DNA of 64,000 nucleotides from Sphingopyxis sp. TUF1 (GTDB lineage Bacteria; Pseudomonadota; Alphaproteobacteria; Sphingomonadales; Sphingomonadaceae). Shown here in pieces: positions 3,638 through 42,089 of the stretch. The notes under the pieces are model-generated. The model ran no database searches. It was not told where the DNA came from and saw only the letters and a program-made list of their open reading frames with translations. Where the stretch lies: contig NZ_CP144683.1 of assembly GCF_036687315.1 (NCBI RefSeq), positions 434,001 through 498,000 of the forward strand. The letters run 5' to 3'. Made by a program: the position numbers and the translations under genes. Position 1 is the stretch's first letter, and each line of letters begins with the position of its first letter.

Positions 3638-3674
3638 CATCGCAAAAATCCCATTGCCCAAAAGGGTCCACACG

Positions 3675-23278: not shown

Positions 23279-24031
23279 ATGAGCAGGATCAGCGGCCGCC
23301 CGGTCATCAGCACCCAGCATGTCTATGGCCTGACGCTGCGCATCGCGCGCTGGCGCGAGGGGGCGCCGGCGACGCCGCTGGTATTTCTGAACGGCATCGG
23401 TGCCGACATCGCCGCTGCCGCGCCGCTGCTCGCGCAGATTCACGGGCGCGAAGTGTGGACGCTCGACATGCCGGGTGTCGGCGGATCGCCTGACGCGATG
23501 CTGCCCTATGCCGCGCCGACGATGGCGGCAGTGGTGATGGAGATTGCCAAGCGACTGGGCCACAACACGCTCGACGTCGCCGGATTCAGCTGGGGCGGCG
23601 CGCTGGCGCAGCAGGTCGCGATCCAGTTTCCGGGGCGCGTCCGCCGGCTGGTGTTGATGGCGACGACGCCCAGCGTCGGCGCGCCGGGGATCGGCTGGGC
23701 CGCGTTGCTCGACGACGACATGCTGGCCAGCGGGCTCAAGCTGCCCACGGCGACCCCGCTCGGCCTCGCCTATCAGTCGATGGCGATGGCGGGATGGACG
23801 AGCGCGCCAATGCTGCCGCGGCTGAAGGATGTGCCGGTGCTGGTGCTGATGGGCGAGCGCGACGGCGTCGTGCCCGCCTGCCACGGCCAGGTGATCGCCG
23901 ACCTGATCGACGGCGCGGTGCTGGAAGTGGTGCCGGGCTCGCACCTGTTCCCCTTCACCCACGCCGCGGCGATTGCGTCGCGGATCACCGCGTTTCTGGA
24001 TCAGCCGCCCGCACTGCAAGCCGTCGCTTGA
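23279..24031 (+). CDS. Alpha/beta hydrolase (poly(3-hydroxyalkanoate) depolymerase-like)
   Basis: A 250-residue alpha/beta hydrolase. The nucleophile elbow is AGFSWGGALAQ (Ser104), the oxyanion region PLVFLNGIGAD, the acid in LMGERDGVVPA and the His in PGSHLFPF. The overall layout resembles intracellular medium-chain polyhydroxyalkanoate depolymerases, but the substrate is not proven by sequence. No signal peptide is seen. Its 3' end overlaps the convergent hydrolase gene by 47 bases. Confidence 0.8.
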   Translation: MSRISGRPVISTQHVYGLTLRIARWREGAPATPLVFLNGIGADIAAAAPLLAQIHGREVWTLDMPGVGGSPDAMLPYAAPTMAAVVMEIAKRLGHNTLDVAGFSWGGALAQQVAIQFPGRVRRLVLMATTPSVGAPGIGWAALLDDDMLASGLKLPTATPLGLAYQSMAMAGWTSAPMLPRLKDVPVLVLMGERDGVVPACHGQVIADLIDGAVLEVVPGSHLFPFTHAAAIASRITAFLDQPPALQAVA

Positions 24032-25028: not shown

Positions 25029-25185
25029 CGCGCCCCCCTCAAGGCCAAGCCAACCTAGCGCGCAGGCGCCCGGCGTCAATGCGCGCTATGGATGGATCGA
25101 TCGGCGAAAGGTTTCAGGCATGAAGCCGCCGAACCAGCCGTTGCCGATAAGACGAGACAGCGGCGAGCGCGATCGACCGACCCAA

Positions 25186-25929
25186 TCAGGACAGCATGGC
25201 CATCCCACCGTTTACATGCAATGTCTGTCCGGTGACATAGCCCGCTTCCTTCGAGGCAAGATAGACGACCGCGGCGGCGATGTCGCTGCCCTCACCCATC
25301 CGGCCCGCAGGGATACGCTGGTTCAGCGCTTCTTTTTGGGCATCGGGCAGGTCGTCGGTCATCGCCGTGGCGATAAAGCCCGGCGCGACGCAATTGGCGG
25401 TCACGCCGCGGCTCGCCAGTTCTTGCGCCAGCGCCTTGGTCATGCCGGTCACGCCCGCCTTCGACGCGGCGTAATTCGCCTGCCCCGGGTTGCCGGTGGC
25501 ACCGACGACGCTGGTTATCGAGATGATCCGCCCGAAGCGCGCCTTCATCATCGGCTTTGCAGCGGCGCGGCACAGGCGGAAATTCGCCTCCAGATTGATG
25601 CGGATGACATCCATCCACTCCTCATCCTTCATCCGCATGATCAAATTGTCGCGCGTCACGCCGGCATTGTTGACAAGAATGTCGAGCTTGCCTCCCAACG
25701 CTTCAACCGCCGCCGGAACGAGCGCATCGACCGCCGCCGCATCGCCGAGATTGCACGGCAAGGCGACATGATCGCCGCCCAGCGTATCGCAGAAGGCATT
25801 GAGCTTGTCGGCATTGGAGCCCGACACCGCCAGCCGCGCCCCCTGCGCGCTAAGCGCCTGCGCAATCGCCGAACCGATGCCGCCCGAAGCGCCCGTAACA
25901 AGCGCCGTCATGCCGGTGAGATCGAACAT
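25186..25929 (-). CDS. fabG: 3-oxoacyl-ACP reductase
   Basis: A 247-residue short-chain dehydrogenase. TGASGGIGSAIA is the NADPH loop, VNNAGVTRDN is conserved, and the catalytic triad is the Ser in ISITSVVG with Tyr and Lys in NYAASKAG. It reduces 3-oxoacyl-ACP in fatty acid synthesis. fabD lies upstream on the same strand with a GxxExxY gene between them, an unusual interruption. AGGAG is 6 bases before the ATG. Confidence 0.95.
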   Translation of the reverse strand: MFDLTGMTALVTGASGGIGSAIAQALSAQGARLAVSGSNADKLNAFCDTLGGDHVALPCNLGDAAAVDALVPAAVEALGGKLDILVNNAGVTRDNLIMRMKDEEWMDVIRINLEANFRLCRAAAKPMMKARFGRIISITSVVGATGNPGQANYAASKAGVTGMTKALAQELASRGVTANCVAPGFIATAMTDDLPDAQKEALNQRIPAGRMGEGSDIAAAVVYLASKEAGYVTGQTLHVNGGMAMLS

Positions 25930-25945
25930 TCTTATGCTCCTGAAA

Positions 25946-26362
25946 TTACCGGTTCACGCGGAGACGCGGAGACGCGGAGGGTTTATGATCGTTAACAATG
26001 CGACGGACGCCCTCCTTGAGCGTCGCTCCGCCGAAATTGATGAGCAGTCCGACGGATTGGCCGGTCAAGCGAAGATAGGTCAACAGCTGTTTGCCATGTG
26101 CCGGGTTCAGCTGTTCGACCGATTTGATCTCCACCAGCAAACGGTTATCGACGAGCAAATCGATACGAAAGGCCGCGTCGAAGCGAGACCCTTCGAAACA
26201 TATATCGATCGGCATTTGCCGATCGACCCGATATCCGAGCGCAACCAGTTTTCCGGCAAGCACGGTCTCGTATACGCTTTCCAGCAGGCCCGGTCCCAAA
26301 TCGCGGTGCAAGCGGAGGGACAAATCAAGCACATCGCCGCTTATGACATCTATGTCCCGCAC
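25946..26362 (-). CDS. GxxExxY family protein
   Basis: A 138-residue protein of the GxxExxY family, related in fold to PD-(D/E)XK nucleases. The signature is GLLESVYETVL near residues 24-34; IDLLVDNRLLVEIKSVE contains the D-(x)n-ExK-like catalytic residues. The start is GTG at 26362, and the GGAGGG in front of it belongs to a repeat arm. The C-terminal SASPRLRVNR is encoded inside the other repeat arm. The gene therefore sits as a cassette between fabD and fabG. Its role is not known; it is likely a passenger. Confidence 0.88.
   Translation of the reverse strand: MRDIDVISGDVLDLSLRLHRDLGPGLLESVYETVLAGKLVALGYRVDRQMPIDICFEGSRFDAAFRIDLLVDNRLLVEIKSVEQLNPAHGKQLLTYLRLTGQSVGLLINFGGATLKEGVRRIVNDHKPSASPRLRVNR
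25953..25981. repeat. Arm of inverted repeat bracketing the GxxExxY gene (3' side)
   Basis: This arm consists of TTCACGCGGAGACGCGGA followed by GACGCGGAGGG, about three GGAGACGC-like units. Its inverse lies at 26366-26386 with one unit fewer. The arm encodes the last ten residues of the GxxExxY protein. Confidence 0.85.
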
Positions 26363-26365
26363 AAT

Positions 26366-26386
26366 CCCTCCGCGTCTCCGCGTGAA
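26366..26386. repeat. Arm of inverted repeat bracketing the GxxExxY gene (5' side)
   Basis: On the minus strand this is TTCACGCGGAGACGCGGAGG plus G, the same sequence as the other arm less one 8-base unit, in inverted orientation. It supplies the ribosome-binding GGAGGG three bases before the GTG start. Confidence 0.85.
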
Positions 26387-26423
26387 CTTCTTCGTCGCTG
26401 CCCCTGCGCCCCGCGTCTATTCT

Positions 26424-27362
26424 TCAGAAGGTTTTCAGCAGTGCTTCGATGTCGTCCATCGAAATGACGCTCGCCGTTTCGACCTCGCCCAACGCGCTAC
26501 GTTTTACCATCGGCGACAACACTTTGCCGCCGAATTCGACGAACTGCGTCACCCCGATGCCTTCCATCGCCCCGACGCTCTCGCGCCAGCGAACGCGGCC
26601 TGTGACTTGCTGGACCAGCACATCGCGGATCGTGTCGGCGTCGCTGACCGGGCTGGCGGTGACATTGGCCACAACAGGCACTAGCGGCGCCGCGGGTGCA
26701 TTCACGCCCAGCGCCTCGGCCATCGCGTCGGCGGCGGGCTGCATCAGCGGGCAATGGAAGGGCGCCGAGACGGGCAGCAGCACGCCGCGCTTGATCCCAT
26801 AATCCTTGACCAGCGCCACCGCGCGTTCCACCGCGCCCTTGTGGCCCGAAATCACAACCTGCGACGGATCATTGTCGTTCGCGACGGTGCAGACCTCGCC
26901 CTCGGCCGCCGCATCGGCCAGCTTCTGCGCGGTATCGATGTCTGCACCGAGCAGCGCCGCCATCGCGCCGACCCCGACGGGCACCGCCGCCTGCATCGCC
27001 TGTCCGCGTGTCTTCAAAAGCCGCGCCGTCGTTGCGAGGTCGAACGCCCCCGCGGCACAGAGCGCGCTATATTCGCCAAGGCTGTGCCCCGCGACATAAG
27101 CGGCCTTGGCCGACAGCGTCACCCCGCCTTCCTTTTCGAGCACGCGCAAGGTCGCGATCGCATTCGCCATGATCGCGGGCTGCGCGTTTTCGGTGAGGGT
27201 CAGCTGATCCTCGGGGCCTTCGGTCATCAACTGGAACAGCTTCTGCCCCAGCGCGTCGTCGACCTCCTGAAACACTTCACGCGCCGCAGGTGACGCGTCT
27301 GCAAGCGCCTTGCCCATGCCAACCGACTGGCTGCCCTGACCCGGAAAAATGAATGCGCGCAT
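26424..27362 (-). CDS. fabD: Malonyl-CoA-ACP transacylase
   Basis: A 312-residue malonyltransferase that loads malonate onto ACP for fatty acid synthesis. FPGQGSQSVGMG is the N-terminal motif, and the nucleophile elbow is GHSLGEYSAL with Ser near residue 92; VSAPFHCPLMQPA gives the catalytic His. The ORF is full length. It is followed on the same strand by the GxxExxY gene and fabG. An inverted repeat lies just upstream of the start, so the promoter must lie in or beyond that repeat. Confidence 0.95.
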   Translation of the reverse strand: MRAFIFPGQGSQSVGMGKALADASPAAREVFQEVDDALGQKLFQLMTEGPEDQLTLTENAQPAIMANAIATLRVLEKEGGVTLSAKAAYVAGHSLGEYSALCAAGAFDLATTARLLKTRGQAMQAAVPVGVGAMAALLGADIDTAQKLADAAAEGEVCTVANDNDPSQVVISGHKGAVERAVALVKDYGIKRGVLLPVSAPFHCPLMQPAADAMAEALGVNAPAAPLVPVVANVTASPVSDADTIRDVLVQQVTGRVRWRESVGAMEGIGVTQFVEFGGKVLSPMVKRSALGEVETASVISMDDIEALLKTF

Positions 27363-27375
27363 GAAAATTCCTACT

Positions 27376-27446
27376 CGTCATCCCAGCGAAAGCTGGGATC
27401 GGTTGCATTTTTACTCCAGCGATCCCAGCTTTCGCTGGGATGACGG
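27376..27446. repeat. Inverted repeat of the CCCAGC-GAAA-GCTGGG type
   Basis: Two arms, CGTCATCCCAGCGAAAGCTG and its reverse complement, surround a 20-base T-rich spacer. Each arm is a small hairpin CCCAGC-GAAA-GCTGGG. It is the same element family as at 13019, with matching changes on both sides of each stem. It separates fabD from the LD-carboxypeptidase gene. Confidence 0.85.
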
Positions 27447-27467
27447 AAAGGCCTCGCGCCTATTCCT

Positions 27468-28295
27468 TCACCCCGCGCGATGCAAGCCGAAGGGGACGAC
27501 CCTGTTCGCCGCATCATGGCCAATGTCGGCGCGGCCCAGCCAAGGGATGCCGGCGCGCGCGCACCAGCCTTGCGCAATTTCCTCGGCCTCCATGCCGAAC
27601 GGCCGGTCGTTGTCGGGAATGTCGCTGACCCGCCCCAGCCGCAGCCCGGCAAGCCCCCGCGGAGCCAGATAGCTCGTCACATGAAACAGCGCGCGGTCGA
27701 AGGCATAGAGATATTCGCTCACCTCCTCGACCAGCAGGACATGTCCCGTCAGATCGGGCTCGAGCGGGGTGCCAAGCAGCATCGAAAGCGTCATCAGGTT
27801 GAATGCCGCGTGGCGCGCCCCATGCTCCAGCCCAGGCTCGCACGCCGCGGGATCGCGCGCCACGAGCCAGTCGAGCGCGCGCAGCACCGCCGCTTCGCCA
27901 TCCTCGCGGCGAATGTCGGCGACCATCGGCCCATGCGCGACATGGTCGAACCCGTCGCGATAGAGCGCCGCCAGCAGATTGCCTTGGTCCGAGTAACCGA
28001 GGAACGCCTTGCCCCGCGCCGCGTCGGTCATCGCCGCAACCGCCTCCTCGGCGATGCGGCATGCGCCATAGCCACCCCGCGCGAACCATACCGCATCGAT
28101 GTCGGCACGGTTCGCCATCTCCACCAGCGCGGCAAAGCGGTGCCCGTCCTCGCCCGCAAAATGGCCGTGAGTGGCGAAACATTGCGGATCGAACACCAGT
28201 TCGACCTCCGGATAACCGAGGCTGGCAATCGCGCGCACCGCCTCGGCATCGTCGGGCAAAATGGGGGTCGAGGGGGCGACGATGCCAATGCGCAT
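27468..28295 (-). CDS. LD-carboxypeptidase (S66 family, LdcA-like)
   Basis: A 275-residue serine peptidase of family S66, which removes the terminal D-Ala from tetrapeptides during murein recycling. GIVAPSTPILPDDA is the N-terminus, VWFARGGYGACRI holds the oxyanion Gly-Gly, and GYSDQGNLLAALY contains the nucleophile Ser (GYSD). VLLVEEVSEYLYAFDRAL supplies the catalytic Glu and GRVSDIPDNDRPFG follows. It is divergent from a Mur ligase and both share a repeat-containing gap, which fits a common recycling function. The start at 28295 is the last ATG before the conserved N-terminus. Confidence 0.86.
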   Translation of the reverse strand: MRIGIVAPSTPILPDDAEAVRAIASLGYPEVELVFDPQCFATHGHFAGEDGHRFAALVEMANRADIDAVWFARGGYGACRIAEEAVAAMTDAARGKAFLGYSDQGNLLAALYRDGFDHVAHGPMVADIRREDGEAAVLRALDWLVARDPAACEPGLEHGARHAAFNLMTLSMLLGTPLEPDLTGHVLLVEEVSEYLYAFDRALFHVTSYLAPRGLAGLRLGRVSDIPDNDRPFGMEAEEIAQGWCARAGIPWLGRADIGHDAANRVVPFGLHRAG

Positions 28296-28311
28296 GAACC
28301 GGCCTTTATTT

Positions 28312-28393
28312 CCGTTCGTGTCGAGCGAAGTCGAGACACCCCGAAGGCAAACGCCAAGCCGAGGGGCATCTCGACTTCGCTCGATGCGAACGG
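28312..28393. repeat. Dispersed 82-bp double-hairpin element, copy C
   Basis: Same orientation as the copy at 10073: a GTGTC/GACAC arm first, then a GCATC/GATGC arm, with ends CCGTTCG and CGAACGG. It occupies the divergent gap between the LD-carboxypeptidase and Mur ligase genes, so it may lie within their promoters. Confidence 0.85.
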
Positions 28394-28448
28394 GAAAGGG
28401 CACGCCGCTCTGGTTGCAAACCCTCCACCAAAGCCATAACGCCGCGCC

Positions 28449-29837
28449 ATGGCCGAAAACAAATCCTATTTCTTCTGCGGCATCGGCGGGTCGGGCATGT
28501 TGCCGCTGGCGATGATCGTCGCGGCGCGCGGCGCCAAGGTTTCGGGGTCGGACCGCAGCCGCGATCAGGGCCGGTCGCCGGACAAGTTCGGCTGGATCGA
28601 AAGCCGCGACATCGCTCTCTTCCCGCAGGACGGCAGCGGCGTCGCCGCGGGTCAGACGCTCGTCGCCTCGGCGGCGGTGGAGGACAGTGTGCCCGACGTC
28701 GCCGCCGCCAATGCGCTCGGCCTTCCCCGGATGACGCGCGCCGACCTCAACGCCGCGCTGTTCAACGCCGCGGACAAGGGCGTCGGCGTCGGCGGCACCA
28801 GCGGCAAGTCGACCGTCACCGGGATGATCGGCTGGATACTCGACCGCGCGGGCCGCAAGCCCACCGTGATGAACGGCGCGGTGATGCGCAATTTTGCGTC
28901 GCGTGACACGCCCTTCGCCAGCGCGCTGGTCGGCGGCGACGCCATCTATGTCAGCGAAGTCGATGAAAGCGACGGGTCGATCGCGCTCTACGACCCCGAT
29001 GTCGCGGTGGTTACCAACATCAGCCTCGACCACAAAAGCCTCGACGAACTGCACCGTCTGTTCGGCGATTTCGCCGCAAAGGCGCGCATCGCGGTCGTCA
29101 ATGCCGACGACCCCGAATCTACGCCGCTGCTTGCGGGCGCGAATGGCCTGCGCTTCGGTTTTGGTGACGATGCCGCGATCCGCGGCAGCAATTTTCAGCC
29201 GCTGCCCGACGGCTGCCGCTTCACGGTCCATGCCGCCGCCGACAGCCATGATGTGCGCTTGAAGATGCCCGGCCGCCATAATGCCGCCAACGCCCTCGCC
29301 GCCATCGCCGCAGCGCACGCGCTCGACATTCCCGTCGCCGCCTCGGTCGCGGCACTCGCCGATTTTGCCGGCCTCGCGCGGCGCTACGAGGTGCTTGGGC
29401 AGGTCGGCGGAGTCACCGCCATCGACGACTTCGCGCACAACCCCGATAAAGTCGCCGCGACGCTGGCCGCCGTCGCCGAACTGCCCGGCCGCGCGCTGCT
29501 GTTCTTCCAGCCGCACGGCTATGGCCCCCTGCGCCAGATGGGCCAGGAACTGGCGGCAAGCTTCGCGGCGGGAATGCGCCACGGCGATAAGCTTTATGTC
29601 TGCGATCCCGTTTATTTCGGCGGCACCGTCGACCGCAGCATCGGCAGCGAGGCGCTGGTTGCGGGTATCGTTGCAGGCGGCGCCGACGCCGTCCATCTGA
29701 CGACACGCGCGAAATGCGGCGCGGCGATCCTCGACGAAGCGAAGCCGGGTGACCGCATCCTGATCCTCGGCGCGCGCGACGACACCCTCACCGAATTCGG
29801 GCGAGAACTCTTGGAAAAGCTCGACCGCCACGCTTGA
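28449..29837 (+). CDS. Mur ligase family protein (MurC/Mpl-like)
   Basis: A 462-residue Mur ligase. The N-terminal FCGIGGSGMLPLAMI resembles the UDP-binding loop of MurC and Mpl, with the ATP P-loop GTSGKSTVTGMI near residue 118 instead of the usual GTHGKTTT. Middle-domain DESDGSIALYDPDVAVVTNI and C-terminal AIDDFAHNPDKV are conserved. It probably attaches a peptide or alanine to UDP-MurNAc. The pairing with LdcA suggests Mpl-like reuse of the released tripeptide, but the variant P-loop and absence of neighbours such as mraY or murG mean this is inference. Confidence 0.8.
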   Translation: MAENKSYFFCGIGGSGMLPLAMIVAARGAKVSGSDRSRDQGRSPDKFGWIESRDIALFPQDGSGVAAGQTLVASAAVEDSVPDVAAANALGLPRMTRADLNAALFNAADKGVGVGGTSGKSTVTGMIGWILDRAGRKPTVMNGAVMRNFASRDTPFASALVGGDAIYVSEVDESDGSIALYDPDVAVVTNISLDHKSLDELHRLFGDFAAKARIAVVNADDPESTPLLAGANGLRFGFGDDAAIRGSNFQPLPDGCRFTVHAAADSHDVRLKMPGRHNAANALAAIAAAHALDIPVAASVAALADFAGLARRYEVLGQVGGVTAIDDFAHNPDKVAATLAAVAELPGRALLFFQPHGYGPLRQMGQELAASFAAGMRHGDKLYVCDPVYFGGTVDRSIGSEALVAGIVAGGADAVHLTTRAKCGAAILDEAKPGDRILILGARDDTLTEFGRELLEKLDRHA

Positions 29838-29995
29838 TTCTTTCGGGCGAATCTGTATAGGCGCGCTCATTCGGGGCGAGGCCACGTTGCCATCGCCCCG
29901 TTTGCTTTGCACGAATACGCAAGGCCGGACGACAGCCGGAGGGGTTTTGCGATTGGCGCGAAACCAGCGATCGGCCAAATCGAAGGAAGCGCATC

Positions 29996-30364
29996 ATGCC
30001 GTTTTACGAGCATGTTTTTATCGCGCGTCAGGATCTGAGCCAGGCTCAGGTCGACGCGCTGGCGGAAACCGTCACCAACGTCATCGGCGAATATAAGGGC
30101 ACGGTCCACAAGACCGAGACCTGGGGCCTGAAGCAGCTCGCCTACAAGATCCAGAAGAACCGCAAGGGTCATTATGTGATGCTGTCGGCCGAAGTGTCGG
30201 GCGAAGCCATCGCCGAGATCGAGCGTCAGGCTGCGATCAACGAAGACATCATTCGCTGGATGACCATCAAAGTCGATGAACTCGAAAAGGGTCCGTCGGT
30301 GATGATGCGCAAGCAGGAACGCGGCGGCCGTGGCCGCGGCCGTGACCGCGACGGCGAAGAATAA
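29996..30364 (+). CDS. rpsF: 30S ribosomal protein S6
   Basis: A 122-residue S6, beginning [19 protein letters not shown] and carrying the conserved [13 protein letters not shown]. The C-terminal tail is a run of Arg/Gly ([12 protein letters not shown]) that is longer than in E. coli. It binds 16S rRNA with S18 on the small-subunit platform. The three-gene unit rpsF-rpsR-rplI has short spacings of 11 and 13 bases. A short CCGG-N7-CCGG hairpin in the leader near 29931 could be part of an S6:S18 autoregulatory site; I cannot verify that. Confidence 0.97.
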
Positions 30365-30375
30365 GGAACAGCAAT

Positions 30376-30600
30376 ATGGCACGACCCTTTTTCCGCCGCC
30401 GCAAGACCTGCCCCTTCAGCGCGAAGGACGCACCGGTCATCGATTACAAGGACGTCCGCCTGCTCCAGGGTTACCTGTCGGAGCGCGGCAAGATCGTCCC
30501 GTCGCGGATCACCGCGGTGTCCACCAAGAAGCAGCGCGAGCTGGCCAAGGCGATCAAGCGCGCCCGCCACATCGGCCTGCTCCCCTACATTGTGAAGTAA
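30376..30600 (+). CDS. rpsR: 30S ribosomal protein S18
   Basis: A 74-residue S18 with the conserved [11 protein letters not shown]-terminal segment and [17 protein letters not shown], then [20 protein letters not shown] near the C-terminus. It pairs with S6 on the 30S platform. Middle gene of the three-gene ribosomal unit, 11 bases after rpsF. Confidence 0.98.
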
Positions 30601-30613
30601 GGAGGGCAGCGTC

Positions 30614-31243
30614 ATGGAAATCATCCTGCTCGAACGTATCGAGAAACTGGGCGGCATCGGCGACGTCGTTACCGTCAAGAATGGCTTTGCGCGCAACTAT
30701 CTGCTCCCGAACAACAAGGCGCTTCGTGCGAACGACGCCAACCGCAAGCTGTTCGAAGCCAACCGCTCGAAGATCGAGGCCGACAACGCCGAACGTCGCA
30801 CCGACGCCGAAGGCCGCGCCAAGGACATCGACGGCAAGCAGATCGTCCTGATCCGCCAGGCGTCCAACACCGGACAGCTTTATGGTTCGGTCGCGGTCCG
30901 CGACATCGTCGACGCGCTTGCCGAAGACGGCGTCCAGGGCGTGACCAAGTCGATGGTCGAGCTTGAACGCCCGATCAAGTCGCTCGGTCTCGTCGACGTC
31001 AAGGTCAAGCTGCACCCCGAAGTCATCGTGACCGTCGCCGTCAACGTCGCGCGTTCGCCCGACGAAGCCGAAATGCAGAAGCAGGGCATCGACGTCATCG
31101 CCGCGATGTTCGAAGAAGAACAGGCCGAAGCCGCCGCTGCGGCGCTCGAGCCCGACAGCGAAGACGAGTTCGAAGACGCCACACCGCCTTCGGAACGCGC
31201 TGCCGACGAAGACACGGCTACGGACGAAGCCGAAGAAGCCTGA
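30614..31243 (+). CDS. rplI: 50S ribosomal protein L9
   Basis: A 209-residue L9. The N-terminal domain is MEIILLERIEKLGGIGDVV, then GFARNYLLPNNKALRAN and the long linker helix, and the C-terminal domain ends with VTVAVNVARS. About 50 further residues form an acidic tail rich in Glu/Ala (from FEEEQAEAAAA onwards), beyond the usual 150 residues; tails like this occur in other alphaproteobacteria. It is the last gene of the ribosomal unit and is followed by a strong terminator. Confidence 0.97.
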   Translation: MEIILLERIEKLGGIGDVVTVKNGFARNYLLPNNKALRANDANRKLFEANRSKIEADNAERRTDAEGRAKDIDGKQIVLIRQASNTGQLYGSVAVRDIVDALAEDGVQGVTKSMVELERPIKSLGLVDVKVKLHPEVIVTVAVNVARSPDEAEMQKQGIDVIAAMFEEEQAEAAAAALEPDSEDEFEDATPPSERAADEDTATDEAEEA

Positions 31244-31266
31244 GCTTCTTCTGCCTGAGCCTTTTG

Positions 31267-31304
31267 AAAAGGGCCGCGTTTCCGATGGAAGCGCGGCCCT
31301 TTTT
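31267..31304 (+). terminator. Rho-independent terminator after rplI
   Basis: The stem AAAAGGGCCGCG pairs with CGCGGCCCTTTT around a 13-base loop, and the T run extends past the stem. It lies just after the rplI stop, in the correct orientation. Confidence 0.9.
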
Positions 31305-31357
31305 CTGTGCGGAGCGCTCGTCGGGAAGGTCTGGAAGCGACTGATTTTGGCCATAAA

Positions 31358-31492
31358 ATCCCCCCTGCCGCGAAGCGGTGGGGAGGGGGACCGCGCCCGC
31401 AGGGCGTGGTGGAGGGGCCGCGACGGTAGCGCCAAAGCCCCTCCGTCAGCGCTTGGCGCTGCCACCTCCCCATGGCTTCGCCACAGGGAGGA
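31358..31492. repeat. Dispersed ~135-bp element, copy 1 (CCTCCCxx type)
   Basis: A GC-rich element with complementary ends (ATCCCCCCTGCCGCGAAGCG on the left, GGGAGGAT on the right) and a central GGGCGTGGTGGAGGGGC...GCCCCTCCGTCAGCGCT hairpin. A related copy lies at 60073-60211. The two copies share the middle and differ in the arms. No ORF of its own is plausible. Confidence 0.8.
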
Positions 31493-31527
31493 TCGTAACT
31501 GGCAAAGCTTGGAGACGACCGAAACTG

Positions 31528-31620
31528 CCGTCGCCCCCCGCGAAGGCGGGGGCCGCTGTCGGTTTACGCAGCGACGCGGGGAAAGGCCGACGGCGGCCCC
31601 CGCCTTCGCGGGGGCGACGG
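31528..31620. repeat. 93-bp inverted repeat of the CCGTCGCCCC type
   Basis: Arms of about 34 bases, CCGTCGCCCCCCGCGAAGGC... and its near-exact reverse complement, flank a 24-base spacer. Each arm is also a small CCCCGCGAAGGCGGGG hairpin. It lies directly after the previous repeat and resembles the repeat type found at 13019 and 27376 in its two-hairpin design. Confidence 0.85.
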
Positions 31621-31848
31621 TCAATTGAAACGCCCGCTCACCACCCCATACCGGACACCAAAAAACCGCTGTCCTACATGCGTCGGCTGTGTCAGCGTCA
31701 CCCCCAGCTCTTTCACATGTAAACAACACAGCCGCTTCCCGACCCACCGGAACGGGGCGCTACAAATGGAACGCGCGCAAGGCTGACCTTTCTTGACCTT
31801 TGGAAGAATCAGGCGGTAATCGCCACACTCCATCCTATTCTCACGAAG
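31621..31848. other. Gap without a recognised gene
   Basis: Between the repeat pair and the 3' end of the ampR-like gene I see no convincing reading frame; the ORFs here are short and composition-driven. No tRNA, terminator or clear promoter was identified. Confidence 0.5.
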
Positions 31849-32724
31849 TCACGCGTCGCGCGCGCCTTCGGCGAGCAGCCACGCGCGAAAGCTCTGCATC
31901 GCATCGTTTTCGGGCCGCGACATCAGGCGGGTGAGCCAGTAACGGCCGGCATCGATCGCCATCTCGAACGGCTGGACGAGCAGCTCGGCCGCGAGTTCGC
32001 GCGCGAACATCGATGGCGGCGCGAGCGCGACCCCCTGCCCTGCCGCCGCCGCGCTGGCCATCAGCGCCGAGCTGTCGAACATCGGGCCGCGAAGGACCGG
32101 GACGGGCACACCCGCGGCACCGAACCAGGCCGCCCACTCGTCGGCACGATACGACCGCAGCAGGCGCTCGGACACCAGATCGGCCGGTTCGCGGAGGCGC
32201 GCGGCGATCACGGGGGCACAGATCGGTGCCAATGGTGCGGCGAGCAATGGCTCGGCATGGGTGCCGTGCCAGGCGCCATCACCAAAACGGATCGCATAAT
32301 CGATCGCCTCGCCTGCCAGATCGACGCGATTGTTGTTCGTCGCGATGCGCAGGTCGATCGACGGATGCGCGCGGGCGAAACGGTCGAGCCGCGGCAACAG
32401 CCAACCGGTCGCAAAGGTGCCGACCACCCCGACCTTCAACGCTTCGCGAAACCGTCCGTCGGCATATTGGTCAAGCGTCGCCGCAACGCGGTCGAACGCC
32501 TCCGACACCACGGGTACGAGCGCATGACCTTCGTCGGTCAAGGCCAGCCCGCGCGGCAGCCGATGGAACAGGCGCGTGCCGAGACGCTTTTCGAGTTCGG
32601 CGACCTGATGGCTCACCGCCCCTTGGCTCACGCACAGTTCAAGCCCCGCGCGCGTGAAGTTCAGGTGGCGTGCTGCGGCCTCGAAGGCGCGGAGGGCGTT
32701 GAGGGGAAGCTGGGCGCGGTCCAT
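31849..32724 (-). CDS. ampR: LysR-family regulator, AmpR-type
   Basis: A 291-residue LysR-type regulator closely resembling AmpR. The helix-turn-helix region opens LPLNALRAFEAAARHLNFT, and the effector domain holds KVGVVGTFATG (G102, T103), NNNRVD (D135) and AIRFGDGAWHGT; these match AmpR in both sequence and residue number. The C-terminal YWLTRLMSRPENDAM also fits. AmpR proteins sense cell-wall recycling fragments and control a beta-lactamase gene. It is divergent from the adjacent metallo-beta-lactamase across 95 bases that contain a LysR-type site. The symbol is given on motif and context, not on a search. Confidence 0.87.
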   Translation of the reverse strand: MDRAQLPLNALRAFEAAARHLNFTRAGLELCVSQGAVSHQVAELEKRLGTRLFHRLPRGLALTDEGHALVPVVSEAFDRVAATLDQYADGRFREALKVGVVGTFATGWLLPRLDRFARAHPSIDLRIATNNNRVDLAGEAIDYAIRFGDGAWHGTHAEPLLAAPLAPICAPVIAARLREPADLVSERLLRSYRADEWAAWFGAAGVPVPVLRGPMFDSSALMASAAAAGQGVALAPPSMFARELAAELLVQPFEMAIDAGRYWLTRLMSRPENDAMQSFRAWLLAEGARDA

Positions 32725-32740
32725 GCCGTACCATCAAATA

Positions 32741-32761
32741 TTCTCATGTCTTTGTCGAGAA
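32741..32761. promoter_or_regulatory. Candidate AmpR/LysR operator (TTCTC-N11-GAGAA)
   Basis: The inverted repeat TTCTC (32741-32745) and GAGAA (32757-32761) is separated by exactly 11 bases, the T-N11-A layout of LysR-type binding sites. It lies between the divergent regulator and beta-lactamase genes, 17 bases before the regulator start and 58 before the beta-lactamase start. Confidence 0.6.
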
Positions 32762-32819
32762 ATCATGCTTTGCCGCCCGCACGCACGCTTGGCATTTTCG
32801 GTTGCGAAGGGAGAATAGA

Positions 32820-33689
32820 ATGATCGAAACAATCGGAATATTGGCCTGGCTCGCGAGCGCAGTCGGCGCCCCCGCCCCGGCGATCGATCCGCTGACGCAA
32901 CCGATCGTCACGTCCCGAACGGCGGCATGGCTCGCCCCCGCGGAACCGACGAAAATCGCCGACAACACCTATCTCGTCGGCTTTGCGGGGCTTAGCGTCG
33001 CGCTGATCGATACCGGCGAAGGACTGGTGCTGGTCGACGGCGCGCTGCCGCAAGCCGCACCCGCGATCCTCGCCAATGTCCGCAAGCTCGGTTTCGACCC
33101 CAAAGACATCAAATTTATTCTGAGCACCGAACCGCATTTCGATCATGCCGGCGGCATCGCCGCACTTGCGCGCGACACCGGCGCGACGGTGGTCGCAAGC
33201 GAGCGCGGTGCCGAGGGGCTGCGCACCGGCCGCCACGCCGCCGACGACCCGCAGCTCGCCTATGGCGGCAGCTGGCCTGCGGTGGCGAACGTCCGCACGA
33301 TGCAGGACGGCGAAGTGCTGTGGCTGGGCAAGACCGCGATCACCGCGGTCGCGACGCCGGGGCACACGATGGGCAGCATGAGCTGGACCTGGCAGGCGTG
33401 CGAGGGCGGCAACTGCAAGGCGGTCGTCTTTGCATCGAGCCTCAATCCCGTGTCGGCCGACGATTATCGCTACACGGCGAGCGCAAGCGCGCCGATCGTC
33501 AAGGGATTCGAGCAAAGCTATCGCAGGATGGACGCACTCGCGTGCGACATATTAATCTCGGCGCATCCCGACAATGCGGGCGACGGGCGCTATAGCGCCA
33601 AACCCCGCGCCTGCCGTGCCTATGCGGATCGTTCGCGTCAAACGCTGGCAAGGCGGCTGGCCCGGGAGCGCGCCGAATCGCCGAAATAG
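32820..33689 (+). CDS. Subclass B3 metallo-beta-lactamase with Glu in place of the first zinc His
   Basis: A 289-residue metallo-beta-lactamase-fold protein with a short N-terminal signal-like segment. The zinc motif, normally HxHxDH, reads EPHFDH (residues 104-109), so the first ligand (standard position 116) is Glu104. H106, D108 and H109 remain, H182 lies in TPGHTMGS and H249 in SAHPDN; Ser206/207 match the B3 Ser221 position (ASSLNPVS). B3 enzymes with Glu116 have been described from sphingomonads (SIE-1). It should hydrolyse beta-lactams, probably in the periplasm. The ATG at 32820 has GGGAG nearby. Activity is inferred, not shown. Confidence 0.88.
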   Translation: MIETIGILAWLASAVGAPAPAIDPLTQPIVTSRTAAWLAPAEPTKIADNTYLVGFAGLSVALIDTGEGLVLVDGALPQAAPAILANVRKLGFDPKDIKFILSTEPHFDHAGGIAALARDTGATVVASERGAEGLRTGRHAADDPQLAYGGSWPAVANVRTMQDGEVLWLGKTAITAVATPGHTMGSMSWTWQACEGGNCKAVVFASSLNPVSADDYRYTASASAPIVKGFEQSYRRMDALACDILISAHPDNAGDGRYSAKPRACRAYADRSRQTLARRLARERAESPK

Positions 33690-33731
33690 CGGGCCAGGTT
33701 TTCCTTTCAGGAGCAGCGCCGCAAAGACGGC

Positions 33732-34904
33732 CTATTTGTCGACCACCAAGCAGGCCTGACCATCCTTGCGGAGCGACGTGCAGAAGCTCTCGGCCTCGCT
33801 CTTGTTAGCAAAACCACCGGCCTGCAGGCGGGTAAGCTTGCCGCTCTTGACCAGATGCCGCTGGCGCCCCGCGACAGCAGGGTTCTTCTTGGCGAGCGCG
33901 GCCCACAGGCCGCGAGCATTGGCTTCGACCCCGAAAGCACCGAGCTGCGCGCGCCAAGGGCTTGCGATTGCATTTTGGACGGCGGCCGGTGCGGGAACGG
34001 CCTTGCCCGGAACGGGCGTGGCGGACGTCGGCACTTTGTTTTCGGGCGGCGGCGTATAGGTCGTGCCCGGCTGCCGCGTCGCGGCTACTGCCGCAGCGGT
34101 CGCTTCGGCGGCAGCGGCTGCGGCCGCTGTAGCTACAGGCCAGGACGTCGTGGCAGGCTTGTCGGCTGCGAGGGCGGGCGTTGGTTTCGGCGCAGGAATG
34201 ACCGGCGGCGCCGAATAGCTGGTACCTGGCGCCGAAGCGGGCAGGCTCGCGGCCTTGATCGGCGAGGATCGCGCAGGTTCCGGTGCGGACGGTGCCCCCG
34301 CGCTGACCGCGGCCAGCCGCTCACGTTGTTCGCTGCGCTCCATGTCGGGGATCATTGCAAGACCACGCTGCCGCTGGTCGAGCGGGATCAGACTGTCGAG
34401 CTGGACAAGCCGCGCCGAGGCGACCGAAAGCCCGGCGTCACTCGCGCGCTTGGTCAGCGCATAGGCGCGCGACCAGTCGCGCTCTGCCAAGTCGCCGTTG
34501 AAATGCGCGGTGCCGAGGACATATTGCGCGCGCGGCTCGCCCCGCGCCGCCGACTTGACGATATGGGGCATCGCTTCTTCGCGCCGGTTCGCGGTGAACA
34601 GCACGAGGCCGAGATTATCCTCCGCCTGCAAATGCCCCTGCTTCGCGGCACGGCGATACCAAGCCTCGGCCTGCGCCAGATCGGCGGGGACGCCGCGGCC
34701 GAGCTTGTACGCCTGCCCCAAGTTGAACTGCGCATCGGCGTCGCCCGCAATCGCCAGCGGGCGCCATTCGGCCACGGCCGCCGGATAATTGCCCGCCTGC
34801 CACGCATCGACCCCCGCCTTGACGTCGGCGCGCGCGGGAACCGCAAATGTCGACAGCGCGAGCAGCGGCAAGGCAAGCAAGGCGGCGGAGCGGAATAAAC
34901 GCAT
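33732..34904 (-). CDS. Exported SEL1/TPR protein with C-terminal SPOR domain
   Basis: A 390-residue secreted protein. The signal peptide ends ARAD. SEL1-like repeats (GDADAQFNLGQAYKLGRGV, KQGHLQAEDNLGLVL, GEPRAQYVLGTAHFNGDL) span residues 40-150. A Pro/Ala-rich linker of about 100 residues precedes the SPOR domain, which starts at WRAQLGAFGVEANARG and should bind denuded septal glycan strands. Its gene diverges from the ParA-led run, whose last gene encodes another SPOR protein. The start at 34904 is preceded by GGAGAATAAG. Confidence 0.85.
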   Translation of the reverse strand: MRLFRSAALLALPLLALSTFAVPARADVKAGVDAWQAGNYPAAVAEWRPLAIAGDADAQFNLGQAYKLGRGVPADLAQAEAWYRRAAKQGHLQAEDNLGLVLFTANRREEAMPHIVKSAARGEPRAQYVLGTAHFNGDLAERDWSRAYALTKRASDAGLSVASARLVQLDSLIPLDQRQRGLAMIPDMERSEQRERLAAVSAGAPSAPEPARSSPIKAASLPASAPGTSYSAPPVIPAPKPTPALAADKPATTSWPVATAAAAAAAEATAAAVAATRQPGTTYTPPPENKVPTSATPVPGKAVPAPAAVQNAIASPWRAQLGAFGVEANARGLWAALAKKNPAVAGRQRHLVKSGKLTRLQAGGFANKSEAESFCTSLRKDGQACLVVDK

Positions 34905-35162
34905 CTTATTCTCCAATGACTTGCGTCGCATTCGGGCGACCTAAGTCCACGAGCATCGTCATAGCGCAAAATGGCTAACACGGCGTTAGCGGTAAATGGC
35001 AGCGCGACGAAGTCGGACCATATTGGGATAAGTCCAGCTTAGAGCCTTCTTTACCACGATTGCGAACCCCTCGTTCACCCTCTTTTTGTCATCGTTAACT
35101 CAATTTTAGCGCCCCGCATGGCATCCCTTCGCCGATTATTGGATTTCCGAGGGGGTAACGCA

Positions 35163-35885
35163 GTGCGCGTATTGGCATTGGCTTCACAGAAGGGCGGGTC
35201 GGGCAAGACGACGCTTTCGGGACACCTCGCGGTGCAGGCGCAGCTTGCCGGCGCCGGTCCCGTCGTGCTCATCGACATCGATCCGCAGGGTTCGCTCGCC
35301 GACTGGTGGAACGAACGCGAAACCGACCTTCCCGCCTTTGCGCAGACCACCGTCGCGCGGCTCGCTTCCGATCTTGAAATCCTGCGCCAGCAGGGTTTCA
35401 AGCTCGCGGTCATCGACACCCCGCCCGCGATCACCATGGCAATCCAGAGCGTCATCTCGGTAGCAGAACTGATCGTCGTGCCGACGCGCCCCAGCCCGCA
35501 CGACCTGCGCGCCGTCGGCGCCACCGTCGATCTTTGCGAACGCGCGGGCAAACCGCTGGTGTTCGTCGTCAACGCCGCGACGCCTAAGGCCAAGATCACC
35601 AGCGAAGCCGCGGTTGCACTGTCGCAGCACGGCACCGTCGCCCCCGTCACGCTGCACCACCGCACCGACTATGCCGCGTCGATGATCGACGGCCGCACGG
35701 TGATGGAGGTCGATCCCAACGGCCGCTCGGCCGACGAGATCCGCCAGTTGTGGACCTATATGAACGATCGCCTCGAAAAGAATTTCCGCCGGACTGTCTT
35801 CGCAGCGCCATTGCCGACGCAGGGCAATTATGGCGCGGTCCGCCCGATGGGTGGTGGCTTCGGCCGCCGCGTCGCTGGTCAGTGA
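35163..35885 (+). CDS. ParA/MinD-family ATPase (orphan)
   Basis: A 240-residue ParA-like ATPase. The deviant Walker A motif is QKGGSGKTTL, Walker A' follows in LIDIDPQGSLADWW and Walker B in LAVIDTPPAI; the C-terminal helices lack any DNA-binding domain. It should act in positioning of a cargo through ATP-driven dimerisation. It is not next to parB, gidB or trmE, so it is not the chromosome segregation ParA. I prefer the GTG at 35163, which directly precedes the core RVLALASQ and has GAGGGGG upstream; an ATG at 35118 in frame is the alternative. Confidence 0.85.
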   Translation: MRVLALASQKGGSGKTTLSGHLAVQAQLAGAGPVVLIDIDPQGSLADWWNERETDLPAFAQTTVARLASDLEILRQQGFKLAVIDTPPAITMAIQSVISVAELIVVPTRPSPHDLRAVGATVDLCERAGKPLVFVVNAATPKAKITSEAAVALSQHGTVAPVTLHHRTDYAASMIDGRTVMEVDPNGRSADEIRQLWTYMNDRLEKNFRRTVFAAPLPTQGNYGAVRPMGGGFGRRVAGQ

Positions 35886-35902
35886 CGGAAGGAACGGGAA
35901 CC

Positions 35903-36565
35903 ATGGGCGAACCGAAACCCCTCGCATCGCTGAGCGCCGGCCTCCTGGCTCGCAAGGGCGGCGCGCGTCCCGCGATGCGCCGCCAGCCGCTCGGCAGCGG
36001 CCCCGCGCCGATGAACAGCATGGGTTATGATGACCTTGGCTGGAACGACATGGGCTATGACGTCGATCCCGACCAGTCGGGCGAACCCGCGCGGATGCTC
36101 GACCTGAAGCCGCTGCTGACCGGTTCGGTGCTTGCGCACAATGTCGAAGCCGAACATGCGGTCGACGCGAGCGAAGGCCACGAACTCATCGCCGGATCGC
36201 TCGATGTCGATCATGGCGCAGAGCCCCTTGCGGACCACCAACCGGAGGTGCCCGAAGTCGTGCGTCAGCAGGAATCGCTAATCGAACGCGTCGCCGCGGT
36301 GGCGCGCAAGGTCGAGGCGCGTCCCGAACCGGCGCCGAAGAAGGAAAAGGCCCCGCGTGCGCTGCGTGCTCGCGAGAAGGCGGCCTTTACCCTGCGCCTC
36401 GATGCCGAGCGCCACCTTCGCCTGCGCCTCGCCAGTGCCGTCACGAACCGGTCGTCGCAGGTTATCCTGACCGACCTGCTCGACGAATATCTCGCCTCGC
36501 TGCCCGAAATCGACGCGATGGCGAGCCGCCTGCCCGCGGCACGCCCGGTGCGCGGCCAGCGCTGA
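35903..36565 (+). CDS. ParA-linked protein with C-terminal ribbon-helix-helix-like region
   Basis: A 220-residue protein of unknown function. The first 100 residues are low in complexity and Met/Asp-rich (MNSMGYDDLGWNDMGYDVDP). A charged coiled-coil-like stretch runs from VVRQQESLIERVAAVARKVEA to KKEKAPRALRAREK. The C-terminal 50 residues, AAFTLRLDAERHLRLRLASA onwards, read like a ribbon-helix-helix domain, with a strand TLRLD followed by two helices. It starts 17 bases after the ParA stop and probably is its partner or cargo adaptor. I recognise no named family. Confidence 0.75.
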   Translation: MGEPKPLASLSAGLLARKGGARPAMRRQPLGSGPAPMNSMGYDDLGWNDMGYDVDPDQSGEPARMLDLKPLLTGSVLAHNVEAEHAVDASEGHELIAGSLDVDHGAEPLADHQPEVPEVVRQQESLIERVAAVARKVEARPEPAPKKEKAPRALRAREKAAFTLRLDAERHLRLRLASAVTNRSSQVILTDLLDEYLASLPEIDAMASRLPAARPVRGQR

Positions 36566-36587
36566 CGATCTGAAGGGGATCCCGACC

Positions 36588-37991
36588 ATGAACCGCAAGA
36601 TGCTGATGAACCTCGCTGTTTCGGGCTTCGTGCTCGGCGTGGCGACAGGGTGCAGCGGCATGGGCGCGATGGCCGATGCGCCGTCGCGTGCCGCCGGTAC
36701 GCCCGCGGTTGCCGCCAAATCGGCCGACAAGGCGCGCGTCGCACTCGAATCCGGCAAGGCCGGCAAGGCTGTCGGCCTTGCCGAAGCAGCGGTCGCGGGA
36801 AGCCCGCGCGACGCAGGCTATCGCACCCTGCTGGGTCAGGCCTATCTGGGCGACGGCCGCTTCGCTTCAGCTGCTACTGCGCTGACCGAAGCGATGGAAC
36901 TCGGCGCGCGGGACAGCAACACGATCCTCTCGCTCGCGCTCGCCGAAATTGCACAGGACCGCAACGGCGAAGCCGTCGCGCTGCTCACCCGCCACCGCGA
37001 CGCTGTGCCGGCGTCCGACCTCGGCCTCGCCCTTGCGCTCGCCGGTGATAGCGAAGGCTCGCTCTATGTGCTCGGCGAAGCCGCGCGCGCCGAAGGCGCT
37101 GACGCGCGGACGCGCCAGAACCTGGCTCTTGCGCTAGCCCTTTCGGGCCGCTGGGCCCAGGCGCGCATCGTCGCGTCGCAGGATCTCTCGCTCGCCAAGC
37201 TCGAAGGGCGGATGGCTGAATGGTCGAAGCTTGCCGAGCAGCCAAACGCGCAAGTGCGCGTCGCCAGCCTGATCGGCACCAGCGCGCAGCCCGACGCCGG
37301 GATGCCCGTGCGCCTTGCACTCAGCAATTTCGCCGATACCCAAATGGCCGTTGCCGAACCCGCGAGCGAAACGCCGGTCCAGCTCGCCAGTGCAGATCCG
37401 GCGCCGGTCGCTGATTATGCACCGCCGCCGCCCGCACTTGCCGGCGCCGGAAGCACGATTCGCAGCGTCGAACTGCCGATGCCCGAACGCACCGCCGATG
37501 GCGTCGTGCCGGTCACCGAACTGCCGCAGCCTGCGGCCGCCGCCGAAATCATCCTCGCTGATGCCAATTCGTATCGCCGCGCGCCGCGCACCGCGGGTGA
37601 AGGCCATATCCGCCCCGCACAGCAACAGGCGCTCGAACTCGCGACCGTCATGGTGCCCAAAGCGATGGGTTTCGACGCCAAAAAGCCCAACGGCTGGGCC
37701 GTGCAACTCGGCGCCTATGACAGCCTGGCCATTGCCAAGGAAAAATGGGGCACGCTCAAGAAGCGTAATGGCGTTCTCGGTCGTTTCCCTGCGTCCAGCC
37801 ATGCCGCCGCCGTCAACGGCCGCACCTTCTACCGCCTGACAGTCAACGGCCTCGCCTCGCGCGCCGATGCCTCCAGCCTTTGCAATCAGCTCAAGGCACA
37901 GGGCCAGACCTGTTTCATCCGCGCAATGGGCGGCAGCGAAAACATCCAGTGGGCCGCCAATGCCAGCCCGATGCGGCTCGCCTCGCGCTAA
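36588..37991 (+). CDS. TPR lipoprotein with C-terminal SPOR domain
   Basis: A 467-residue predicted lipoprotein. The signal ends in the lipobox VATGC. Three to four TPR repeats cover residues 45-180 (RDAGYRTLLGQAYLGDGRF, DSNTILSLALAEIAQDRNGE). A Pro-rich linker leads to a SPOR domain near residues 365-450 (NGWAVQLGAYDSLAIAKEKW). It should be anchored in the outer or inner membrane and reach septal peptidoglycan. It is third in the ParA run, 22 bases after the second gene, so it may be the cargo that ParA places. Confidence 0.87.
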   Translation: MNRKMLMNLAVSGFVLGVATGCSGMGAMADAPSRAAGTPAVAAKSADKARVALESGKAGKAVGLAEAAVAGSPRDAGYRTLLGQAYLGDGRFASAATALTEAMELGARDSNTILSLALAEIAQDRNGEAVALLTRHRDAVPASDLGLALALAGDSEGSLYVLGEAARAEGADARTRQNLALALALSGRWAQARIVASQDLSLAKLEGRMAEWSKLAEQPNAQVRVASLIGTSAQPDAGMPVRLALSNFADTQMAVAEPASETPVQLASADPAPVADYAPPPPALAGAGSTIRSVELPMPERTADGVVPVTELPQPAAAAEIILADANSYRRAPRTAGEGHIRPAQQQALELATVMVPKAMGFDAKKPNGWAVQLGAYDSLAIAKEKWGTLKKRNGVLGRFPASSHAAAVNGRTFYRLTVNGLASRADASSLCNQLKAQGQTCFIRAMGGSENIQWAANASPMRLASR

Positions 37992-38014
37992 AATCGGTTT
38001 CCCGGCTAAGGGGG

Positions 38015-38044
38015 GAGGGGCGTGGCCGCGAGGCCGCGCCTCTC
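38015..38044 (+). terminator. Strong hairpin between convergent genes, likely terminator
   Basis: A 13-pair stem (GAGGGGCGTGGCC with GGCCGCGCCTCTC, two G-T pairs) closes on a GCGA tetraloop and is followed by TGTTGTTC. It lies between the SPOR lipoprotein gene and the convergent folE, so it could act for both strands. The T run is weak. Confidence 0.5.
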
Positions 38045-38066
38045 TGTTGTTCGGGCCAGCGAAGGA

Positions 38067-38669
38067 TCAATAGCCCATCAGGCCCAGCACTTCCTTGCGG
38101 CTGCGCTGATCCTCGAGGAAACAGCCGAGCAGGCGGCTCGTCACCATGCCGACGCCAGGGGTACGGACGCCGCGGCCGGTCATGCAGCCATGCTGCGCAT
38201 CGATCACGACCGCGACGCCGTGCGGCTGCAAATTGTCCCAAATGCACTGCGCGACCTCGGCGGTCAGCCGCTCCTGCACCTGCAGCCGCCGCGCATAGCC
38301 GTTGAGTACGCGCGCGAGCTTGGAAATGCCGACGACGCGATCCTTGGGCAGATAGGCGATCGACGCCTTCCCCGTGATCGGTGCCATATGATGTTCACAA
38401 TGCGACTGGAACGGAATGTCGCGCAGCAGCACGACCTCGTCATAGCCGCCGACCTCTTCGAAGGTGCGCGACAGGTGGACCGAGGGATCCTCGCCATAGC
38501 CCGAGCAATATTCCCTCCACGCGCGCGCAACGCGGCGCGGCGTGTCGCGCAGCCCTTCGCGCGCAGGATCGTCGCCGGCCCATTCGATCAGCGTGCGAAC
38601 CGCGTCCGCAACATGCTGCGGAACGACCACCTTGCCGTCTGGCCCCAACTCCTGTCCCAAATTGCTCAT
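38067..38669 (-). CDS. folE: GTP cyclohydrolase I
   Basis: A 200-residue type I GTP cyclohydrolase that converts GTP to dihydroneopterin triphosphate for folate synthesis. The zinc site is [32 protein letters not shown] and a late [12 protein letters not shown] with the second Cys ligand are intact. The start at 38669 is the last ATG before the conserved [22 protein letters not shown] region, with a GGGG-type site before it. It is convergent with the ParA run and has a long upstream gap toward the first TonB-dependent receptor. Confidence 0.95.
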
Positions 38670-39104
38670 TGCCCCGCTTTCACTGTTGCCATCATGTCGC
38701 ACATTTCGGCGCGACCGGGCCGATAAGCAAGGCCTGCGCGCCAAGATTTTATGGCCCGCGGGCAAGTTGACGTTGCGGAATCTTAGCTTTTTATGGATTT
38801 CAACAGGCGCAGTTTCGCGTCCTTTTTTGGGCCAAACAAGCCACTTGACGCTTTCGTCAAGTGAGCGCACCCTTAGGCAATACAGAACTCGCTCAAGCGG
38901 GTCGTATTCCGGAGAGGCCGTGCGTTTTCCCCGACGCCGGCGGGAGAGGACGATGACCAGCACAGCTGGCAGGTGGGAATTTCAAGGGCACATGGCCACA
39001 TTGGCCGGGTGCCCTTTGCCATGTCTGGTCGTTTCCCCTCCCCTTACCACAATTTGATGTTGGGCGGCCCCGCACCTCGCGGGGTTGAAAAAGGGAGGCT
39101 GTAA
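38670..39104. other. Divergent gap between folE and a TonB-dependent receptor, with three hairpins
   Basis: No gene is seen. Three perfect inverted repeats stand out: 38842-38863 (CACTTGACG-CTTT-CGTCAAGTG), 38984-39016 (AAGGGCAC...GTGCCCTT with an inner GGCC pair), and 39068-39084 (CCCCGC-ACCTC-GCGGGG). The last ends 9 bases before the GGGAGG ribosome-binding site of the receptor gene, so it could affect its translation. Promoters for both genes must lie here. Confidence 0.6.

Positions 39105-42089
<2,985 letters not shown>

Follow-up and report, generated by a model that had tools for sequence, protein, structure and literature searches.

An AmpR-type regulator divergent from a Glu116 subclass B3 metallo-beta-lactamase in Sphingopyxis sp. 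TUF1: a predicted inducible module and its putative operator

A gene for a subclass B3 metallo-beta-lactamase with glutamate at the first zinc position (the B3-E variant) lies back to back with a gene for an AmpR-type regulator in Sphingopyxis sp. TUF1, and comparison with related sequences makes it very probable that the two form an inducible beta-lactamase module. The pair was found in a window of 64,000 nucleotides, positions 434001-498000 in a host genome of 3.47 Mb. Both genes are present and divergent where a preliminary description of the window had placed them, and are 95 bp apart (Table 1). The further proposal of that description, that a cell-wall-sensing regulator drives a metallo-beta-lactamase here, is supported by several comparisons: the divergent arrangement recurs, a candidate operator accompanies it, regulator and operator are kept or missing together, enzyme and regulator distances are correlated, and AmpG, NagZ-like and Amidase_2 proteins are encoded in the genome.

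Table 1. Features of the module and of its possible neighbours, in window coordinates
Feature	Position	Strand	Basis
Peptidase S66 gene (LdcA-like, family level), possible recycling neighbour	27468..28295	-	below curated LdcA cut-off
Mur ligase-like gene (MurC/Mpl type), possible recycling neighbour	28449..29837	+	below MurC and Mpl cut-offs
ampR-type LysR regulator gene, 291 aa	31849..32724	-	LysR domains, solved relatives, identities
Predicted AmpR operator, 44-bp conserved block, T-N11-A at 32734 and 32746	32732..32775	+	conservation
GCAT, with conserved CA at 32793-32794; likely part of the bla promoter	32792..32795	+	two columns of 1.8 bits
AAGGGAG, likely bla ribosome-binding site	32807..32813	+	sequence; SD-like pattern in relatives
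B3-E metallo-beta-lactamase gene, 289 aa, start ATG at 32820	32820..33689	+	ORF, B3 model match, alignment to SIE-1
EPHFDH codons (BBL E116, H118, D120, H121)	33129..33146	+	sequence, alignment

The enzyme and its divergent regulator

The enzyme scores 271.8 bits against the NCBIfam subclass B3 model NF033105, above its cut-off of 240, and its best solved relative is 7LUU, with 75% identity over 265 residues. Residues E104-P-H106-F-D108-H109, H182, H249 and S207 align with those of SIE-1, the protein in that structure, and so correspond to E116, H118, D120, H121, H196, H263 and S221 in BBL numbering, some of these labels being presumed. The alignment bears out the motif EPHFDH, the two later histidines and the serine at 221 as first described, and places the glutamate at 116. 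The canonical B3 ligand set comprises His116-His118-His196 for Zn1 and Asp120-His121-His263 for Zn2; five of the six are present here, and with Glu116 alongside HH/DHH the enzyme is assigned from its residues to the B3-E variant rather than to canonical B3. All seven positions from E104 to H249 are invariant among 30 aligned Glu116 enzymes, and the pattern ST-E-P/S-H-x-D-H occurs in 118 of the best 120 of 1588 database proteins, the other two of the 120 not matching it.

SIE-1 comes from Sphingobium indicum and is reported to act on all major beta-lactam classes (PMC10318434). It resembles the present enzyme in Glu116 and the remaining ligands and is its closest solved relative, which upholds the earlier statement that Glu116 enzymes are known from sphingomonads. 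SIE and SIQ of Sphingobium indicum and SSE of a Sphingopyxis sp. are listed in PMC10740994, so this kind of enzyme is already known; SSE, to judge from its naming, is probably a B3-E enzyme too. The N-terminus, MIETIGILAWLASAVGAPAPA (window 32820-32880), has a glutamate at position 3 and, unlike several relatives, no lysine or arginine ahead of its hydrophobic stretch, so that export of the enzyme is likely but not certain.

The regulator contains the helix-turn-helix and substrate domains of the LysR family and is closest in sequence to AmpR, its nearest solved relatives being AmpR effector domains (5mmh, 3kos). It shares 57% identity with the AmpR of the DHA plasmid, 56% with the regulator beside SFO-1, 49% with ImiR and 39% with a plasmid GcvA. 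Three pocket columns that differ between chains 3kot and 3kos are conserved in it as T103, S219 and Y262, the last two presumably being S221 and Y264 of AmpR. The preliminary description had taken G102, T103 and D135 as a match to AmpR, and all three are indeed found at identical numbering in the alignment. The column of D135 is Asp in GcvA also, however, and does not separate the two families; G102-T103 does, being P-S in the solved GcvA chain and S-G in the plasmid GcvA homologue. Constitutive AmpR forms have been reported from changes at 102 and 135 (PMC5549177).

The regulator is not assigned to AmpR, PenR or GcvA by any NCBIfam model at its cut-off: it reaches 393 bits against 625 for PenR (NF041130) and 282 against 288 for GcvA (NF008352). 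The narrow shortfall against the GcvA model is one point in favour of a divergent LysR protein that is a GcvA-like or CARR-like repressor of bla and senses no muropeptides. Another is CARR of Phytobacter, a repressor encoded divergently from its target, the B3 gene blaCAR-2; neither piperacillin nor ampicillin lifted its repression (PMC12434095). Such a repressor is nevertheless improbable here, given that CARR, by its published description, shows poor conservation with AmpR (PMC12434095), that the closest solved relatives and the identities to the DHA and SFO-1 regulators lie on the AmpR side, and that G102-T103 and the pocket residues are kept.

The gene set for AmpR signalling (AmpG, NagZ, AmpD-type) is present in the genome. 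AmpG scores 413 bits against a cut-off of 350, with a second relative below it; a NagZ-like protein with KHIPGHG is recognised at the level of family and motif, and a single Amidase_2 protein at the level of its domain only. LdcA and Mur-ligase recycling genes had also been claimed for the window. Members of both families do occur there, but they remain below the curated cut-offs for the named enzymes, and their nearness to the module is kept in only one of three other Sphingopyxis-type loci examined, which makes it weak evidence for a recycling link.

Distribution of the module and residue 116

A search of 397 Sphingomonadaceae genomes for B3 genes (E <= 1e-30) gave 206 matches in 201 genomes, and 204 genes were examined. 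A divergent AmpR accompanies 27 of the 34 Glu116 genes (one ampR interrupted), and an AmpR is adjacent at all four Gln116 loci and at two of the 166 His116 loci; a third His116 gene with AmpR, in split frames (G328), falls below the census threshold. The Gln116 genes are L180, L182, L183 and L186, in one of which ampR is divergent and in three directly downstream on the same strand. In a named set of Glu116 enzymes, the best 80 of 300, gathered with a scan pattern that itself demands STEPH and from genomes overlapping with the census, a divergent AmpR is found at 69 of 80 loci, again with one ampR interrupted. These pairs include Caulobacter radicis, C. endophyticus and Caulobacter sp. 602-2, and one of the 11 loci lacking AmpR (L228) ends at a contig edge. 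The interrupted gene belongs to Novosphingobium sp. Chol11 (G372; L012 / L251), where an in-frame stop breaks ampR beside the B3-E gene, the same organism being present in both sets.

Searched in the opposite direction (E <= 1e-60, six best candidates scored per genome), a close AmpR is found in 47 of the 397 genomes, one of them with a partial second copy that stands outside the partner counts. In all but one of the 47 the neighbour is a beta-lactamase gene (that of G328 is in split frames), the partners being 27 B3-E, 12 class A, 4 B3-Q and 3 His116 B3 genes and 1 esterase-like gene. The latter, at L191 (G043; 1974-2936, 3009-3899), encodes an alpha/beta hydrolase and is divergent from a close AmpR with the operator (59.2 bits); it is a possible new AmpR target. 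At L185 (4008-4907) a class A-like gene stands beside AmpR, in which the SDN motif was searched for and not found. The record titled Arthrobacter sp. TPD3018 (L273) carries a module of sphingomonad type under the name of an actinobacterium, and is therefore probably misnamed.

Residues 116-117 were masked for a FastTree phylogeny of the 204 B3 genes. All 34 Glu116 enzymes fall into a single clade there (support 99), next to a clade with 132 His116 enzymes, and the four Gln116 enzymes make up a second, distant group. Residue 116 changes twice in this tree, both times with AmpR, and the AmpR label needs 8 changes. In a FastTree phylogeny of 108 AmpR sequences, the B3-E-linked regulators, except L021, form a single clade with the esterase-linked one (support 99). 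Its nearest group consists of four class-A-linked AmpRs (support 57), which suggests that the B3-E lineage captured its regulator from a class-A-linked type. The B3-Q-linked AmpRs group with the SFO/IMI regulators (support 86) and two His116-linked ones with DHA (support 58). With B3-linked AmpRs in separate parts of the tree, AmpR probably joined B3 genes several times, the deeper branches being weakly supported. Enzyme and AmpR distances are correlated (Mantel r 0.83, none of 2000 permutations being as high), although species descent could give such a correlation by itself, and the value does not tell it apart from co-inheritance of the module.

An exclusive tie between AmpR and Glu116 was considered, a partial count having shown no His116 gene with AmpR; lower-scoring matches then added the Gln116 and two His116 genes, and the claim was reduced. 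A statistical tie between residue 116 and AmpR was likewise rejected, as there are only two independent pairs and the sign test (p 0.5 at the median) is not significant. Since Glu116 arose once in the tree, its functional tie to AmpR is unproven. It is rather unlikely that loss of His116 and capture of AmpR are functionally linked, such that residue 116 would predict regulation. If they were, an enzyme made only in bursts could afford, or might need, a different Zn1 site, which would explain why both departures from His116, to Glu and to Gln, go with AmpRs from different parts of the AmpR tree.

Wider searches at E <= 1e-35 gave B3 matches in 9 of 385 genomes of the class and 29 of 398 of the phylum, and AmpR was found in the flanks of none of the 29 loci added by the two (L367-L395, a series that contains some repeats and some members of the family). 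Among these, L367 (G409) is a Glu116 enzyme (EVHYDH) from another family of the class with neither AmpR nor operator in the flanks examined, and L368 (G633) is a B3 relative with HPHFDY, in which Tyr replaces the Zn2 ligand His121.

The predicted operator

The conserved block between the two genes lies 7 bp from the ampR start codon and 44 bp before that of bla. It is present in 82 of 83 non-redundant ampR/B3-E pairs (78 distinct sequences), in Sphingomonadaceae and in Caulobacter, and reads cATgAa.tattcTCATGgCT.TGTCGAGaaAtgATGCTTTGTcg across the 82 pairs. Mean conservation is 1.42 bits per column in the block and 0.52 in the 30 columns that follow; the T of T-N11-A is kept in all 82 and the A in 81. 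In 70 of the 82 the distance between the ampR start codon and the start of the block is 7-9 bp, a spacing that would fit autoregulation. The conserved CA keeps a fixed spacing, at bases 18 and 19 past the operator, and a loose SD-like pattern is found in 81 of the 83 intergenic regions. L021, a B3-E gene whose divergent regulator belongs to another branch, is the pair that lacks the operator.

The operator at 32732 scores 74.6 bits on the full matrix (others 47-83) and the next best site -16.9; with a matrix built from 36 distant sites the values are 60.3 and -9.6 bits. None of the 164 His116 loci without AmpR scores better than -3.4 when scanned in full, or than -23.2 within 400 bases upstream, and at the 12 class-A-linked AmpR loci the best scores range from -22.9 to 33.2. 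The spacer between ampR and ampC of DHA scores -4.7, which is weak yet the best match of its locus, and this also speaks against the GcvA-like or CARR-like repressor; the same scan gave no operator match in the spacer at the SFO and IMI loci. A regulon beyond bla was considered and set aside, as the operator core has a single copy in the genome within three mismatches, so that no wider regulon is claimed. Rfam gave no match in window 24000-42000, and scans for sigma-70 promoters and terminators yielded nothing firm.

Eight plasmid records contain a B3 match, and in three of them (L362, L397, L398) the relative exceeds 60% identity, with a LysR gene divergent from the B3 gene and operators of 70.4, 68.2 and 65.2 bits respectively. 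On pTomMM15b of Sphingobium sp. TomMM15 (L397), a plasmid typed as conjugative, the ampR/B3 module and its operator lie roughly 1.7 kb away from the gene of a conjugative relaxase.

For 17 genomes with a Glu116 gene that lacks an adjacent AmpR, the regulator was sought genome-wide and the operator upstream of bla. Operator and AmpR are kept or missing together across these genomes: seven have an AmpR elsewhere and an operator-like site upstream of bla (19 to 78 bits), and ten have no close AmpR anywhere and a best upstream score of -36.9. With unlinked AmpR the operator reaches 78.4 bits at L224 and 76.2 bits at L228, whose gene is at the contig edge; it is partial (29.7-33.6 bits) at L281 and L285-L287, and G328 has a weak operator-like site of 19.2 bits. 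The genome of L224, with its intact operator and unlinked AmpR, is a point against the inducible module, as is L021. In Caulobacter sp. Root655 (L281, L401) the distant AmpR is beside a class A gene and the partial operator is at a B3-E gene elsewhere. The AmpR genes L402-L404, from the genomes of L285-L287, show neither a B3 nor a class A match within the flanks examined, and the B3-E genes of these genomes have partial operators.

Decay is a reading that these losses bring to mind: AmpR would be non-functional and bla expressed constitutively at a fixed level, like BlaA of C. crescentus, which reportedly responds neither to ampicillin nor to a loss of recycling (PMC13046382). Seven of the 34 Glu116 loci are without AmpR, and ampR is interrupted in the relative G372. 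This is very improbable for the window, where ampR is uninterrupted and retains its pocket residues, and where the operator scores within the range of the others; moreover, the genomes without any close AmpR are also without the operator. An inducible module remains the reading favoured here.

Known systems, proposed mechanism and meaning

SmuR/SMB-1 is a known pair of a LysR regulator and a B3 enzyme. The present module resembles the AmpR-ampC systems of Citrobacter, Pseudomonas and the DHA plasmid in having an AmpR-type gene divergent from a beta-lactamase gene, an operator between them and recycling genes, and differs in having a metallo-enzyme as its predicted target and, as operator, a 44-bp sequence of its own, which the DHA spacer matches weakly. 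The preliminary description had seen a departure from class C control, and AmpR does stand beside a B3-E gene here; the arrangement is less unusual than supposed, given the following precedents. The B3 enzyme L1 of Stenotrophomonas maltophilia is regarded as an AmpR target: ampR is linked there to the class A gene of L2 and assumed to act on the unlinked L1 (PMC4667094), whereas here ampR is beside the B3 gene itself; the L1/L2 layout is resembled by Caulobacter sp. Root655. VarR/VarG of Vibrio cholerae (PMC5595328) and CARR/CAR-2 (PMC12434095) likewise have a LysR gene divergent from a metallo-beta-lactamase gene, the regulators being compared by description, and CAR-2 has His at all Zn1 positions in contrast to the Glu116 of the present enzyme.

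Control of a B3 enzyme by AmpR, Glu116 enzymes and LysR/metallo-beta-lactamase pairs are thus already in print. The word AmpR is absent from the SIE-1 review (PMC10318434), and neither a role of AmpR in beta-lactam resistance of Sphingopyxis nor AmpR with Glu116 enzymes was found in the open-licence literature. As far as these searches tell, the operator, the gene censuses and the account of regulator capture are new within that literature.

In the proposed mechanism, AmpR would sit on the operator and repress its own gene, and when bound to UDP-MurNAc-pentapeptide it would hold bla low. Beta-lactams would disturb the wall, such that anhydro-muropeptides enter via AmpG, pass NagZ and displace the co-repressor, which would make AmpR activate bla; the signal would be ended by the Amidase_2 enzyme. 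The enzyme would hydrolyse beta-lactams with a two-zinc site that has Glu116 in place of His116, as in SIE-1. The trees suggest that the B3-E lineage took up a class-A-type AmpR and mostly kept it, and that several lineages later lost the adjacent regulator, and most of these the operator too. It is very improbable that the enzyme is instead a metallo-beta-lactamase-fold hydrolase of some other substrate, coupled to AmpR for wall maintenance rather than drug resistance, for although Glu116 is unusual and a close AmpR that shares the operator stands beside the esterase-like gene, the B3 model match is above its cut-off, SIE-1 hydrolyses beta-lactams (PMC10318434), and the other 46 close AmpRs adjoin beta-lactamase genes.

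As an inducible module under AmpR-type control, the pair would give a little-studied B3-E variant its regulatory context. The Glu116 enzymes of sphingomonads and some Caulobacter are predicted to be inducible by wall damage, whereas nearly all the His116 relatives examined are without an adjacent AmpR. The exact predicted operator is available as an object for tests, and a natural contrast is offered by Caulobacter radicis, with AmpR, and C. crescentus, whose BlaA is reported as unregulated (PMC13046382). More broadly, the module would be a case of one regulator type common to unrelated beta-lactamase folds.
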